Positions 29,647-36,184 of a DNA stretch of 64,000 nucleotides are shown here, piece by piece. The stretch comes from Neoscytalidium dimidiatum (Eukaryota; Ascomycota; Dothideomycetes; Botryosphaeriales; Botryosphaeriaceae). Positions within the stretch are counted from its first letter, which is position 1. Each line of letters opens with the position of its first letter. The notes under the pieces are model-generated. The model was not told the origin of the DNA. It saw only the letters and a program-made list of their open reading frames with translations, and ran no database searches. A program made the translations under genes and the position numbers. The stretch spans positions 4,030,001 to 4,094,000 of the forward strand of contig CM074695.1 in NCBI GenBank assembly GCA_037367355.1, written 5' to 3'.

Positions 29647-29651
29647 CGAAA
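29647..29651. repeat. Target-site duplication, left copy (CGAAA)
   Basis: CGAAA directly abuts the TGTTAC end of the left LTR and matches 36180-36184. It lies 6 nt inside the MFS intron donor GTGAGT. Confidence 0.93.
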
Positions 29652-30036
29652 TGTTACGCCGGGACTCTTTCTGGGGGAGTCGAGGCGCGTCGTCAGGCAG
29701 CTTGGGCTTTCTAGGGGCCAATACAGTGGTAGGCAGGGGAGGTTCGTACAATAGTAGGGTAGGAATCAATTGACAAGTTGACCACGAGGGTCCTAACTAC
29801 GATAAATGAGTGTGGTCTATATACATGGAGTGATCGGTACGATCAGTAGTGATCTGTAATGTTAACCCACTGATCAGTACTGATCGGTGGTCCGAGCTTT
29901 GCTGAGCGAGTGTGCGGTGGTCTGGTGCATCAGTGTCGGTAGGTATTCTGCCGAGTTAGGCCCCGAGTTGGTCACGTGGGCGGTGAGTAGTCGTAGGGTT
30001 TCGTTATCCGCCTTTCTGGGCGACTGTGCCGTAACA
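29652..30036 (-). repeat. LTR, downstream (3') copy in element orientation
   Basis: 385 bp, base-for-base the same as 35795-36179 on reading both copies. It begins TGTTACGCC and ends GCCGTAACA on the plus strand. It contains a GATC-rich palindromic cluster (29830-29895) and TATATA at 29818. Confidence 0.96.
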
Positions 30037-30052
30037 CTATCCCCCCTCTAGG
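30037..30052 (-). other. Polypurine tract
   Basis: On the minus strand this reads CCTAGAGGGGGGATAG and directly abuts the downstream LTR, the expected place and composition of the plus-strand DNA synthesis primer. Confidence 0.8.
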
Positions 30053-30055
30053 CAA

Positions 30056-30070
30056 CCTTCGGCCCGAAGG
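30056..30070. promoter_or_regulatory. Perfect CGG-N1-CCG palindrome (candidate operator)
   Basis: CCTTCGG-C-CCGAAGG is a perfect 7-bp inverted repeat with a one-base centre. The core CGG-N1-CCG is an inverted pair of the triplet bound by Zn(II)2Cys6 dimers. It ends 5 bp before the TATA box of the antisense gene. It could also be an RNA hairpin. Confidence 0.45.
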
Positions 30071-30075
30071 TCGAG

Positions 30076-30082
30076 TATAAAG
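30076..30082 (+). promoter_or_regulatory. TATA box of the antisense gene
   Basis: GAGTATAAAGG lies 49 bp upstream of the ATG at 30131 on the plus strand, opposite to gag-pol transcription. Position and sequence fit an RNA polymerase II core promoter. Confidence 0.55.
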
Positions 30083-30130
30083 GTAGTTGAGCTCCCTCCT
30101 TAGTTCCCTTGAGATTATTTCTCTGCCGTC

Positions 30131-30677
30131 ATGTCCAGTTCCGCTCGTCGACGCGCGCTTCTCGTATCCTTCGTAACGGTACTGACGCTCCCAGACGTTG
30201 TTCCTTTTGTGGGAGACCTCGTCTTCGTTGTCTTGTGTCGCCGGATTCCAAGAGGTGTTACGAGTGTGCCAAGCGAGGCCACCTTTGTTCCTTTCCTTCT
30301 GACATGGCTTCCCTATTGAGTTTCGTCGTGTGGATCAACAACGGGACCGGGTGCGGGCTCAGATTGAGCAGACCCAGCGCGAGATCGAAAGGGATGAGGC
30401 CGAGATTCAGCGGTTGCAAGAGGAGGCTCAACGTTTGGTTCGTCGTACCGCCACTTCTCGGTCCAAGGTGATCCGCCTGTTGCGGACACTTTCCTTCCTG
30501 GATTCCCGGAGTCAGGAGTTGTTTGAGCGGGAGTTGGCGGCCATTGAGGCTGAGGAGGCGCAGGAGGCGCGGGCGGCTCAGGGGTCCTTGTTATCTGGTT
30601 CAGGCGGTGGTGACGTGGCGGGTTCCGACGGGCTGGTTCCTCGAGAGGCACCGGTGGACCAGTTTCAGGTGTCCTGA
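30131..30677 (+). pseudogene. Antisense accessory gene of the retroelement: Zn(II)2Cys6-like cluster plus coiled coil
   Basis: Runs opposite to gag-pol and overlaps the end of pol tail to tail by about 78 bp. From the ATG at 30131 a short basic Ser/Arg start (MSSSARRRA) is in one frame. A cysteine array at 30199-30288 lies in the next, with spacing C-x2-C-x6-C-x8-C-x2-C-x6-C, exactly within the Zn(II)2Cys6 (Gal4-type) consensus, and with basic residues between the cysteines. From 30318 the third frame encodes about 118 residues that begin as a long charged coiled coil (RVRAQIEQTQREIERDEAE, then QRLQEEAQRLVRR) and end in an acidic Gly/Ser tail. Zinc cluster then coiled coil is the Gal4 DNA-binding/dimerisation layout. 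Two small indels (about 30155 and 30290-30317) separate the frames, like the indels in gag and pol. Function is inference. Confidence 0.6.
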
Positions 30678-33600
30678 CGCCTCCTCCGGGGTTTGCGTCG
30701 TGGGAGGATGCTCTGGGTTTGGGCGGTCAGGGTTTCGTCGGTGGTATTCATGGATGAGTTCCTCGCAGTTAAGGTAAGAGATTGGTTCCCATGAGGGTTC
30801 CCACGGGTTCCCGGCGGAATCCGCTCCTTCCCATTTGATGAGGTACTTAAATTGACCGTCGATCCAGTCTCCATCCAAGATTTTCTCTACGTCCCATTCT
30901 TTGTCGGCGTCATCGGGGTGTATTTCAAGTTCTGGGTCAGGTTCGGCGTTGCTGTGTGCGGGTTCAAGTAAAGAGATGTGGAAAACTGGGTGTATACCCA
31001 CTTGTTCTGGCAATCTGAGTTTAAAGGAAACAGGTGAAAGTTTTTCTCAATTTGGTAGGGTCCGATTTTCTTGTGGTCCAATTTGTCGTTCGATCGTGTT
31101 GTTTTGATGTTTTTCTGAGGAGCCAGACTTTATCCCCTCCTTCAGGGCGGCGACGCCTGGCGCCGTCTGTCATGGTACATGGCCATTCGGTATGCGGTGA
31201 ATTTGATGTCTCGGGCCAGTTCCTGGTGTAGTTCACGTAGCTGGTCTGCTCTGAGCATAGCTTTTGGGCGAGTACTTCGCAGATCTGGGGTTCTCCGAAG
31301 GCAGTAGGGTCGAATCCGTAGTTGGCGTAGAAGGGCGTGGTTTGTGTGGCTTCCGTTGATGTGCTGTTGTACGCGTATTGGGCTAATGGTAGGAGTTCGA
31401 CCCAGTTGTTTTGCCTGTAATTCAGGTAGAATCTTAGGTACTGTTCTAGCGTTTGGTTGGTTCGTTCCGTTTGTCCATCGGTTTGCGGGTGTGCCGTTGT
31501 TGACATCTTGTGTTTAGTTCCTAACTTGTGGACCAAGGTTTGCCAGAACTTAGCTCTGAATCGTGGGTCTCGGTCCGTGATTAGTTCCTTGGGCATCCCG
31601 TGGTGGGCGAAGACATATCTGAGGAAGAGGTAGGCGCAGCCTTCTGCTCCGATTTTTTGTTACAAGGGATGAAGTATGCCCATTTTGTCAGGCGGTCGAC
31701 AATGACCAGGATGGCGTTGTGTCGTGCTTTAGTCACAGGGTCTACTGAATTTGGCAGGTCGGTGATAAAATCCATTGTGACCGATTCCCAGGGTTTGGTT
31801 GGTGTTGTGATGAGCTGTAGTTGTCCGTATGGTGCATGTCGTGCCACCTTGTTTTTGCGCATTCGTCACATTCCTGGATGACTTTCTCTACTACTTTCCT
31901 CATTCGGGGAAAGTAGAAGTGTCTTGCAAGCCGTTCCAAGGTTCTTGTCATTCCTGGGTGTCCGTGAACTGCGGACTCGTGGTATTCCTTTGTCAGCCGT
32001 TTGCGCAGAGGTGTGGGTACGTAGATTTTTCCGCGGAATAGTATGTTGCCTCTATGGTCTTGGACTAGGTCGGGGTCGTCATGTTCGGGGGTGCCTATTC
32101 GTTGAAGCAGTTCTTGGGATAGCGGATCATTGTTATATTTTCCTTGGATGATTTGTTCCCAAGTGGCGGTGTCATCTTCTTCCTCGTTTACCCTCTTCCG
32201 TGGTTTCTTCAAGTGTTGGTATGGGTTCCTCGTCCTGCGGTTCCTCTTCGTCCTCCGGCTCCTGCTCTGGTGTTGGGTTTCGTGGAGGTTCGTCGTCGTC
32301 GATGGGGCTCCCTAGCCTTATGATGGGTGCCAGTATTCGTTCTTCCCAGGGTGCGTCGGATTCTTCAATGATTCGGGGGCGGTTGGGGCCTAACGTGCCG
32401 TCGTCATTTTGTCGTAGTACTGCTGGTGATAGTTCTGGCTTTCCTTCCACGTGGTCGGCTCTGCGGCTAAGTGCGTCGGCCTTGCCGTTTTCACTTCCCT
32501 TGCGGTAGTGGATCTTGAAGTAGAAGGGGGCGAGTTGTTCTGCCCATCGTACTTGTCTTCTGTTTAACACCTTGGTGGTTGTGAAGTATCCCAGGTTCTT
32601 GTGATCCGAGTATACCGTGATTTCGTAGTTAGCTCCCTCAAGGTAGTGTCGCCATTCCTTGAACGCTGTGACGATCGCAAGCAGTTCTTTGTCGTGTATC
32701 TCGTAATTGAGCTCGGCGGGTGACATTTTGCGAGTAATACGCGATAGGGTGTAATCTTCCCTCGTCGTCTGGCTGGCTGAGGTAGCGCCAATGGCATAGT
32801 CGGATGCGTCAGTTTCGAGGTAGAGTGGCTTGTCAGGATCGAACATGAGGAGTACCGGCGCTTCTACGAAGGCCCTTTGAGTTGATCAAACGCCTCTTGT
32901 TGGGGTGCTTCCCAGGTGAAAGGGTATTTTTCGGGTGAGTCGGATTAGGGTTCGGCTACATGCGAGTATCGTTTGATGAATCGTCGGTAGAAGTTGGCAA
33001 ACCCTAAAAAGGCTTGTACTTCTTTGACGTTCCTTGGTTCTGGCCACTTCAGGATGTCTTCCACCTTTTTTGGGTCCATGACTATTTTTCCTGGTTCGAT
33101 GATAAAGCCTAGGAATTCTACCCTTTGGGCATGGAAGGTACATTTTTCTGGTTTGACGGAGAGGTTGTATTCGAGTAGTTTCTGGAGGACTTTGGATACA
33201 TGTTCCTTGTGTTCTTCAAGGGTTTCTGAGTAGATCAGGATGTCGTCGAGGTAGGCTGTGCAGAATCGGTCCAGATATTCTCGTAGGACGTGGTTGACAA
33301 GGGCTTGGAATGTGGCAGGGGCGTTGGTAAGTCCGAAAGGCATTACCAAGTACTCGTACAAACCGTATCGAGTTCTGAATGCGGTTTTCCATTCATGTCC
33401 TTCCTTGATTCGGATAAGGTGGTACCCATCCCGCAGGTCTAACTTGGTGAAGAATCGTGCCCCGGAGGCGATCCCTTAGTTCATCGATGCGGGGTAGAGG
33501 GTAGCGGTCTTTGATGGTAATGTCGTTCAGGGATCGGTAATCCACACAGAGGCGTAACTTGCCTCCGGGCTTTGGTACGAAGAGGACGGAATCCTGCTGA

Positions 33601-34408
33601 GGATTGAGAGGGTCGGATGTATCCCTTCTTCAGTAGTAAGTCCAAGTGTTCCCTCATTGCTTGTAACTCCTTTTCCGACATTGGATATAGGGGTCCAAAT
33701 CGGGGTTCAGTGCCTGGTTTCAAGTTGATCTCGTGGTCCCATGGTCTGTGTTCCGGTAGTGCGTCTTCGATCTTTTCTCTGAAAATTTCCTTGAACCGGT
33801 GGTATTCCTTAGGAACGCCATCAAGGTACTGTTCGTGTATCCTGGTGGGGTCATCTCTCCACGGGTGTCGGGTAGTCTGGTTTTTCTCGTCTGGTGGCAC
33901 TAATCTGTCGGGTTCTTTCTTTGTTTGTAGTGGTGGGGCGATACCACATCATCCAATTGCTTGCCCCTTCTTTCGGGTCCTTTCCAGCGCAGCTTTCGAA
34001 ATTAGGCTTACGTGGGTAATCGGTTCGGCTATGGTGCGTGGTTTCCATTCTGGTTCTTGGTTTCGTTCTCTGGACTTGAGGGTAATTCCTCCATTGTCCC
34101 AATCGTATTGTATTTTCCATTTCTTCTGCCAAGGGATGCCGAGAATGACATCATACTTGGGGATCTTGGTAACGTCTAGACAGATACGTTCCCTGGTTTT
34201 TGTATTCGAGGGTCAGTTTCGGGGTTTCGATGATTACCTTTCCATCTCCAAAGGAGCTGGGGGATCCATCAACAGTTCTCAGCTGATATGGTTGGTCCTT
34301 TTCTCTGGGTTTTAGGTTGGCTTTTTCTGCAAATCGGTTTGAGACGTAGTTCCCTTGTGATGCGGAGTCGATGAGGGTGAGCGCTCGGCGTCCATTGATT
34401 TTTGTCAC
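30600..34408 (-). pseudogene. pol of the chromovirus (protease-RT-RNase H-integrase-chromodomain), frameshifted
   Basis: Read on the minus strand the parts come in order but in changing frames. A retropepsin-like block (34408-34151) has LIDSASQGNYV, which departs from the usual D-S/T-G. Reverse transcriptase spans about 33900-32945, with the catalytic YLDD at 33253-33242. RNase H starts near 32846 (LYLETDASDYAIG). The integrase HHCC zinc finger is at about 31981-31860, and the DDE core has its Asp near 31772 (TMDFITDLP), second Asp near 31575 (LITDRDPRF) and Glu near 31464. A chromodomain lies at about 30899-30730 (EWDVEKIL, YLIKWEG, WEP). One-base indels break the frame near 33590, 33465, 32950-32870, 32190, 31740 and 31600, mostly at runs of one base. 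No full-length Pol can be made from this copy. Confidence 0.9.
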
Positions 34409-34716
34409 GACAACCCAGTGGTTCCCGTATTCTGCGGAGTCTCCTTTGCTTTCTGGTGGGTGTCCTGTGGTTTTTCCGGTCGATGCTGCTATGGTCCTGT
34501 GGGGCAGGGCCTCGCCTGCTGTAGCCCCAGTTCAGTAGGCGTTTCTAGTTTTTGGGTGGTACCCGCTGATGTTCTTAGCTTCCTGGTGAATGGGGCAGGC
34601 TTCGATGCTACAAGTGGACCAGTGGATGGTGTCATGGTTGGGGGTCTCGGTCGTCCTTCAGTAGCCGAGGTGGTTTTCTTGTCGTTGGTTCGCTGGTTGC
34701 TGGTTCGTTTGTCTGG

Positions 34717-35739
34717 GCAGTTTCTGCTGATATGTCCGTGCTTTCCACAGTGGAAGCAAAGACCCTTTCACGCCGTCGCTGTTCTTCCTCCGGCGCCAGC
34801 CGAGGTTTCGTCGTTGGTTGGCATCTAAGTCCATGGGGTCCCGGGGTAGGTTGTTTCGAGGTTGCGCGGTGTTGGCCGAGTATCGGTTTGGCCTGTCTCT
34901 TGTCTGAAATTGAACAGTTGTTGGTCGACTCGGATGGCCGTGTCGATGGTCTCGCTAAGGTCCTTGGGTAATCCGGTGCGGGCGAATTCGGCCTTCACAT
35001 TGTGCTTTAGGCCCTTGTAGAAGATGTATTTGAGGGATTGGTCGTTCCAATTGAGGTAGGAGGCGAGCATGCGGAATTCCGTGACATATTCCGAGACTGA
35101 TCGGGTTTGTCGGAGGTCCTGAATTCGAAGGGCGGCCTCCTGCTCCTCGTTCTTGCTACCAAAGGCTTGTCTGATTGCGTCGGCGAAGCGATTGTAGTTG
35201 GCGAACAGGCTACTGGTTTCCGTACGTGGGATGGCCGAGCGGAAATCCTTTCGATAGGGTTCGAACCACCGTGCTGCTGCGTTACCTCGGAGGTAGGTTC
35301 CTGCAAAGCGGACCCTTTCTCATCGTCCTTGAATGATGCTTTGTAGAATTCAGTAATTCTCTAGTTGGGCCAGGAAGTCGTTGAGCTTACGCCGATCCCC
35401 ATCGTAGGTGTCGGGGTCTTGATCTTTAGTTTGGTGTTGTGGGGGTCGATTCTGATGTCGCGGGGTGGCTGGGGTGGAGGGCCGCATAGTACGGTTGACA
35501 GTAAAGGCTTGTCCTCGAATGAAGTACTCCAGAAGGACTTGGCCGCAGTCCTCACTGGCGTTCTCTGGTACTCTGGGTCCGTTGATTGCTCGACTCAAGG
35601 AGGCTATGCCCGAGGAATATGCTTCCGAAATGAGCAGCCTCATGTTAAGAGCTGGGTTTCCAGGGATCAAGGGACGGATTGACTGAAGCTGTTCCTCCTC
35701 CGTCGGAAGGTTGTTCCTGATTTCGGTCCAGGATGTCAT
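34717..35739 (-). pseudogene. gag of the chromovirus, frameshifted
   Basis: It starts at an ATG at 35739, about 55 bp inside the upstream LTR boundary, and opens with MTSWTEIRNNLPTEEEQLQ. The capsid-like part continues with gag-type motifs in the same frame after two compensating indels near 35345 and 35300 (for example GTYLRGNAAARWFEP and EYVTEFRMLASYLNW). A further break near 34825 precedes a CCHC zinc knuckle (CFHCGKHGHISRNC, 34758-34717). The nucleocapsid would package the RNA. As it stands the frame gives only a 129-residue N-terminal fragment. Confidence 0.85.
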
Positions 35740-35794
35740 GGTTAGTAGTTTTCAGGGTGGGGTTACCTCCGGTGCCTAAGAAAGGTGGTCAAAG

Positions 35795-36179
35795 TGTTAC
35801 GCCGGGACTCTTTCTGGGGGAGTCGAGGCGCGTCGTCAGGCAGCTTGGGCTTTCTAGGGGCCAATACAGTGGTAGGCAGGGGAGGTTCGTACAATAGTAG
35901 GGTAGGAATCAATTGACAAGTTGACCACGAGGGTCCTAACTACGATAAATGAGTGTGGTCTATATACATGGAGTGATCGGTACGATCAGTAGTGATCTGT
36001 AATGTTAACCCACTGATCAGTACTGATCGGTGGTCCGAGCTTTGCTGAGCGAGTGTGCGGTGGTCTGGTGCATCAGTGTCGGTAGGTATTCTGCCGAGTT
36101 AGGCCCCGAGTTGGTCACGTGGGCGGTGAGTAGTCGTAGGGTTTCGTTATCCGCCTTTCTGGGCGACTGTGCCGTAACA
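35795..36179 (-). repeat. LTR, upstream (5', promoter) copy in element orientation
   Basis: 385 bp, identical by eye to 29652-30036. Transcription of gag-pol must start here toward lower coordinates. TATATA at 35961-35966 is a plausible TATA box, and the GATC-palindrome cluster at about 35973-36038 lies directly upstream of it in that orientation. Confidence 0.95.
36015..36028. promoter_or_regulatory. 14-bp perfect palindrome in the LTR promoter
   Basis: GATCAGTACTGATC is self-complementary over 14 bp and sits among other GATC half-sites (TGATCGG, CGATCAG, TGATCTG) about 50 bp upstream of the LTR TATA box. The twin copy is at 29872-29885. It may be an upstream activating site. Confidence 0.45.
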
Positions 36180-36184
36180 CGAAA
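36180..36184. repeat. Target-site duplication, right copy (CGAAA)
   Basis: CGAAA follows the GTAACA end of the right LTR; pairs with 29647-29651. Confidence 0.93.

Follow-up and report, generated by a model that had tools for sequence, protein, structure and literature searches.

A fungal chromodomain Ty3/gypsy retrotransposon carries an antisense accessory gene that was under selection as a protein

A recently inserted chromodomain Ty3/gypsy retrotransposon in the Neoscytalidium dimidiatum genome carries, on the strand opposite to gag-pol, an accessory gene of the aORF-3R (brtn) kind, whose product is most likely a nucleic-acid-binding dimer that regulates its own element, a functional reading that we hold with moderate confidence. 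That the gene itself is real we consider highly probable: it has a constant location and a conserved reading frame, its codons have been under selection, relatives occur elsewhere, its modules appear to have been exchanged between element families, and in a second family it is divided by a candidate intron. Positions below are those of the window, i.e. the whole 64,000-nt stretch of DNA that was analysed, unless a locus is named.

The host element spans 36179 to 29652 on the minus strand. Its two 385-bp LTRs, recovered by repeat search (3′ LTR at 29652..30036, TGTTAC...GTAACA; 5′ LTR at 35795..36179; both minus strand), are identical (0 differences) and are flanked by a 5-bp target-site duplication, CGAAA, at 29647..29651 and 36180-36184. 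The gag-pol region (30600..35751, minus strand), located with Pfam and the list of open reading frames, is split over several frames in the window copy and encodes gag (capsid), zinc knuckle, protease, reverse transcriptase (RT), RNase H, integrase and chromo domains; the order of RT, RNase H and integrase, the C-terminal chromodomain, the LTRs and the target duplication identify the element as a Ty3/gypsy chromovirus. A purine-rich tract read from the sequence at 30037..30052 (minus strand) adjoins the 3′ LTR and, judging from this position, is probably the polypurine tract. The assembly searched for further copies comprises 43.8 Mb in 40 contigs, and several of its small contigs are sized at exact multiples of 20,000. 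Young copies of the element are clustered or nested with old ones, as at L030:2943-3640 and L006:1-407, where a diverged gene region is ~75% identical. Many old copies (among L039-L059 and L069-L085) show dense C>T/G>A changes with a CpA preference that resemble RIP, and the full-length antisense frames of these RIP-like copies typically contain 10 to 15 TAG and 4 to 12 TAA stops.

The antisense gene occupies 30131..30757 on the plus strand, with its ATG at 30131 and its stop at 30755-30757, and thus has the LTR at 29652-30036 on one side and the end of pol, which its 3′ part overlaps, on the other. Pfam domains and LTRs agree with the original prediction on this location, antisense to gag-pol and between pol and the 3′ LTR, which is also the location that defines an aORF-3R. 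The gene end that had been placed at 30677 is a frameshift stop. The parts that the prediction named (TATA box, ATG, Cys array and coil) are all present, but in the window copy they do not form one reading frame: the frame opened by the ATG closes after 62 aa, a second frame holds the Cys array, a third (30303-30677, plus strand) the coil, and the C-terminus lies in a further segment. One uninterrupted antisense frame was found in two of the 30 copies fetched (29 sisters and the window copy), namely L002 (211 aa) and L007 (210 aa), so that the intact copies which were to be sought elsewhere in the genome do exist. An aORF-3R is expected in most copies of its family, and an antisense gene lay within about 70 bp of all 40 scored pol ends (40 of 99 candidates were scored), 36 of these genes belonging to family 1 and four to family 2; pol ends were paired by eye with the antisense-gene listings (40 of 77 and 150 of 179 candidates scored). 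It is also expected to be coding, and the codon-level selection described below indicates that it is.

Short deletions break frames throughout the young elements (e.g. window 29652-36179), many of them at recurring sites. Comparison of the 30 young copies with L002 under gap-friendly scoring gave 134 indel events, of which 131 were deletions and 82 lay in homopolymers, alongside a single mismatch; with another scoring the figures were 132 indel events and eight mismatches, and relative to the window copy there were up to four mismatches per copy. As many indels with hardly any substitution are hard to obtain by mutation, errors of assembly most likely account for the frame breaks of the window copy, a view that we infer from the assembled sequences, and this indel-rich, substitution-poor pattern makes real decay of the young copies unlikely as the cause of the frameshifts. 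The indels are unevenly spread, with 6.9 events per kb in the antisense gene, 4.9 in pol and 0.7 in the adjoining LTR (eight gap events in 11094 bases of young LTRs, 27 of 29 being gap-free), a contrast that a uniform rate of assembly error would not produce; it could be explained by short-read polishing from unique flanks, the young elements being probably unpolished repeats. Gap events in 15 old, RIP-mutated copies numbered 0 in 9514 bases of the antisense gene, 34 in 14198 bases of pol and 19 in 5650 bases of the LTR, these last at eight sites (in gap letters, 0, 58 and 22, respectively). Similarly, the best stretch was gap-free in 30 of 32 old loci, with one gap in one locus and nine in another (five stretches were partial). 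Such gap counts would also point to selection on the antisense gene as protein. However, the list from which the old copies were taken was ordered by protein match, so that gap-free copies were favoured, and together with the rarity of LTR indels this weakens the argument from gaps while leaving the codon evidence untouched.

For the codon analysis L002 was compared with 47 loci, 15 of them young, using the longest aligned stretch per locus and excluding C>T and G>A differences as possible RIP; differences were taken relative to this one copy, sites were treated as independent, and expectations came from 5000 rounds of base-matched resampling. Among the 42 unique non-RIP differences (two of which come from the young copy L060), 30 fell at the wobble position of the antisense frame and 26 were synonymous in that frame, as opposed to 13.3 expected, and none of the 5000 resamplings reached 26. 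The original prediction had named a random Ka/Ks-like pattern between copies as an outcome that would speak against it; the pattern seen was this synonymous excess. Selection on pol is a potential source of such a signal, given that a Pro-rich pol tail runs antisense through the accessory gene (L002:330-1886, L061:1-1362): in L002 pol remains open for 443 nt into the gene, and in L061, of family 2, a pol-strand frame of 453 aa crosses exon 2 and most of exon 1. These long open stretches would fit an antisense frame that is a by-product of the open C-terminal tail of pol. The wobble positions of the two strands differ, and the test can therefore separate them. Within the stretch shared with the open pol tail, 19 of 31 differences were synonymous in the antisense frame compared with 10.0 expected (P 0.0004), whereas in the pol frame only six of 31 were, compared with 9.4 expected (P 0.95), and the N-terminal part of L002, with its Cys array, sits past the pol stop. 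The antisense frame is thus not a shadow of the pol tail, and we regard the by-product explanation as very improbable.

The controls behaved accordingly. Pol upstream of the overlap showed a synonymous excess of its own (48 of 106 differences versus 23.6 expected, in the 14 loci that could be aligned out of 15 old copies). In the 15 old copies the antisense gene gave 15 synonymous differences out of 22 versus 7.0 expected, a figure that, like the one from the 47 loci, the ranking of old copies by protein match may have slightly raised; in the same copies the two other frames of the antisense strand showed no excess (P 0.95 and 0.9995), nor did the three frames of the LTR show a significant one (P 0.09, 0.30 and 0.82). 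Within the gene the synonymous excess is confined to the antisense frame, which has therefore been selected as protein; no selection could be measured on the pol tail. Codon-level selection thereby marks an antisense accessory ORF as a protein gene in an element with identical LTRs. The same confinement bears on the idea that the antisense transcript itself is functional, through dsRNA/siRNA or transcriptional interference, with the protein being secondary. This possibility is raised in the part of PMC7264820 consulted and would suit the presence of an antisense TATA box, but of the frames tested in the gene it is the antisense one whose codons show selection, which makes it quite improbable.

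A second family of elements (eight loci, L061-L068) was 95-96% identical to L002 over the compared region, namely the terminal 0.6-0.7 kb of pol that was fetched, and this similarity breaks sharply within the last 30 codons of the antisense gene. Past the breakpoint, blastn recovered only a 45-bp block at the purine tract (in L062 and L063) and a 79-bp LTR stretch (in L063), and the N-terminus of the family-2 antisense protein gave a weak match to the profile of family 1 (E 0.00033, probability 38, 31% over 64 columns). A database relative of the family-2 protein, P0007 (87% identical), matches the family-1 profile at the coil and tail (E 5e-15). It looks as if modules have been exchanged repeatedly between antisense genes, with mosaic genes in other genomes as well. 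By eye, the database proteins P0006 and P0014-P0017 carry familiar C-terminal tails on other N-terminal parts, the matches of P0015-P0017 being weak. The family-2 gene is interrupted between its Cys and coil parts by a 48-nt segment that begins with GTAAGT, ends with CTAG and contains an in-frame stop; this form was present in six of the eight loci, L067 having 46 nt and L064 lacking an exact 5′ motif recognisable by our script. The frames on either side join at ...DAE|FRR-LD, which recreates the EFRRxD motif of the intronless relatives, and in our gene model the segment is a candidate intron of the antisense strand. An intron that lies opposite to the genomic RNA survives retrotransposition, and this one would therefore be an indirect sign of antisense transcription and splicing.

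Upstream of the gene, the TATA box announced by the original prediction is present: TATAAA at 30076..30081 (plus strand), a candidate antisense promoter, is followed by 49 bp and the ATG. It is preceded by a 17-bp inverted repeat read from the sequence at 30055..30071, ACCTTCGGCCCGAAGGT, which has a CGG-N-CCG core and is palindromic save for its centre base. The family-2 counterpart, GCTTTCGGCCCGAAAGC, is likewise followed by TATAA at the matching place, and in this comparison of two families the repeats differ at two base pairs with both sides changed, i.e. the differences are compensated. The pattern common to both repeats had 50 exact matches in the genome (42 of type 1 and eight of type 2) and 16 further matches at one or two mismatches, while a reversed control pattern had none. 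At least one of the 16 mismatched sites seems unrelated, the palindrome-like site C1:4126069 (L086), near which no recognisable related gene was found. RNA folding of the palindrome stretch was no better than that of shuffled sequences (z 0.31 to -0.20). The inverted repeat may be a dimer binding site or a structure tied to plus-strand priming.

In an elaboration of the first of these options, the antisense gene would encode a self-recognising repressor or copy-number regulator, and element lineages would swap whole LTR-plus-antisense modules as an immunity-group system. Dimerised through the coil, this regulator would bind the CGG-N-CCG inverted repeat, which has the purine tract on one side and the TATA box of the gene on the other, and would thereby control both the antisense promoter of its gene and the element's 3′ end; the repeat would coevolve by compensated changes, akin to the swapping of repressor-operator immunity modules in phages. 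We consider this rather unlikely; if true, it would amount to an immunity-group system of retrotransposons. The two families, which are 95-96% alike at the compared pol 3′ end and have strongly different antisense modules, provide a natural comparison that makes both the binding target and element-to-element immunity directly testable.

The six-Cys array predicted on the plus strand is present at 30199-30288, identified by pattern match with the spacing C-x2-C-x6-C-x8-C-x2-C-x6-C. One array of this spacing class occurred in the real window, while 40 first-order Markov windows contained none, which makes a chance origin unlikely. Zn2Cys6 clusters have the spacing C-x2-C-x6-C-x5-12-C-x2-C-x6-8-C, and it was partly on the exact agreement of the window array with this consensus that the gene had been called Gal4-type. 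The first loop, however, was x7 in all six intact relatives examined, with the spacing x2-7-8-2-6 in P0002, P0003, P0004, P0005 and P0009 and x2-7-8-2-7 in the family-2 exon 1 of L066. As x6 was seen in the window copy and L005, both of which are frame-broken, the match to Gal4 spacing is an indel effect, and the true array reads C-x2-C-x7-C-x8-C-x2-C-x6-C. The Pfam profile Zn_clus (PF00172) did not match P0002, P0003, P0009, L066 exon 1 or the window frame at E<=10, although in this genome the same profile had 301 candidate matches, 150 of them scored; as judged by eye, no match among those listed lay at an antisense gene. Moreover, proteins with both the Cys array and the coil are merely 190-243 aa long, and no fungal transcription-factor middle domain was found by Pfam in the antisense proteins searched, for which no family at all scored above its cut-off. 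DUF3716 (PF12511) gave a sub-threshold match to family-2 exon 1 (E 0.0097, 16.2 bits, cut-off 22) and none to the family-1 protein P0002. A 448-aa open frame at G000:C4:927650-927802 also has a sub-threshold DUF3716 match (20.3 bits, same cut-off).

What held of the Gal4 comparison is the long coiled coil after the cluster. The AF2 model of P0003, built with seven relatives (mean pLDDT 63.8), has a single long predicted helix at residues 65-165, with block pLDDT values of 84-98 for residues 71-160, whereas the Cys part was modelled at low confidence (44-57); by alignment this helix corresponds to approximately 30318..30590 (plus strand) of the window. Capture of a host Gal4-type (Zn2Cys6) transcription factor by the element would account for the two CxxC-x(6-7)-C halves, the basic N-terminus, this predicted coil and the CGG-N-CCG inverted repeat upstream. 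Set against the x7 loop of the intact relatives, the unmatched Zn_clus profile and the missing middle domain, such a capture appears quite unlikely to us, and the tests run do not support a Gal4-type regulator.

A single-sequence search returned five database proteins at E<=0.001, and a profile search 15 at E<=0.1, some of them through the C-terminal tail alone and three above E 0.01. P0003-P0005 share the six Cys and the coil at 52-59% identity, and P0009, a hypothetical protein of Thermoascus aurantiacus, is 43% identical to P0002 over 226 columns; conservation across the alignment is among the highest in the stretches DSK-CYEC and EFRRVDQ. The name BRTN did not appear among the database matches of the antisense protein searches, viral contigs held no relative of P0003, and a sequence search of the PDB yielded nothing significant for P0002. 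With phmmer, chains of retroviral nucleocapsid proteins partially matched the second Cys half, at non-significant E values of 9.2 to 9.9. These matches, and the fact that the module adjoins the purine tract, would agree with a structural or chaperone-like particle helper whose zinc module binds RNA and whose coil multimerises, and which is no transcriptional regulator. An antisense product would not be made from the genomic RNA, which would make co-packaging less natural, and no significant similarity supports such a helper; we view it as possible but doubtful.

The reading we prefer, a regulator of the element itself, can be outlined as follows. Transcription would start at a small promoter that has the 3′ LTR/polypurine tract on one side and the ATG on the other, and would head away from the LTR, against gag-pol, and in family 2 the transcript would be spliced at the candidate intron. 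The product would join the six-Cys module, which is probably zinc-binding, to a long dimerising coiled coil, and the resulting dimer would bind nucleic acid and regulate the expression or replication of its own element. Such a regulatory role is probable in light of the architecture and of analogy with HBZ, TRP28 and brtn. Indel-ridden repeats in assemblies can hide antisense genes of this kind behind false frameshifts, maybe one reason why few have been annotated.

Compared with known systems, the antisense protein resembles the Zn2Cys6 regulators (PF00172) in that its six Cys fall into two CxxC halves, with a predicted coiled coil behind them, and differs from them in its x7 first loop, the absence of a PF00172 match, its shortness and the lack of a middle domain. 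HBZ of HTLV-1, a coiled-coil regulator, is a bZIP protein and, to our knowledge, has no Cys array; it belongs to a vertebrate virus, and the likeness drawn here is one of layout. Like the protein described here, it is encoded antisense at a retroelement's 3′ end (PMC11963269, as excerpted).

LTR retrotransposons were recognised years ago to carry antisense accessory genes, to which no function has been assigned (PMC7264820, in part), and the original prediction that a control system of this sort had not been described was too strong, as antisense genes are on record in Boty (brtn) and in plants (excerpts of PMC7264820, PMC8365987 and PMC11963269). The main text of a survey of fungal LTR elements (PMC3248453) does not contain the word 'antisense', and among the papers listed by searches of open-licence PMC we recognised none on a Cys-array antisense gene in a fungal chromovirus; the kind of gene is thus known already, and those searches did not turn up the Cys-coil type with an intron and a paired inverted repeat. 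The plant aORF-3R genes (Grande gene23, RIRE2, Retand TRP28 and PvRetro13 ORF2) differ in the protein domains reported and in their plant hosts, Retand being described as a non-chromovirus; they too are antisense, between pol and the 3′ LTR, and for them the excerpts consulted describe an own promoter (in Grande) and possible DNA-binding or regulatory proteins (PMC7264820, PMC11963269, the latter for the antisense TRP28 ORFs in Retand).

The fungal counterpart is brtn, which Boty-like retrotransposons carry in antisense orientation (Zhao et al., 2011, Virology 417:248-252, as cited in the parts seen of PMC8365987, PMC7264820, PMC4227169 and PMC5987419). The accounts of brtn in these parts describe no Cys array, coil, intron or palindrome, and the likeness drawn here is one of description. 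The additional ORF of BcGypsy1 is brtn (PMC8365987, in part), a Monilinia transcript similar to BRTN has been reported (PMC5987419, in part), and Boty is grouped with elements that have antisense ORFs, of function not known, between pol and the 3′ LTR (PMC7264820, in part). A Boty-like element combines gag-pol bearing a CHROMO domain with 'brtn-106' (PMC4227169, in part), and brtn thus resembles the gene described here in its place, antisense and flanked by pol and the 3′ LTR, within a fungal Ty3/gypsy element of which at least this copy carries a chromodomain.
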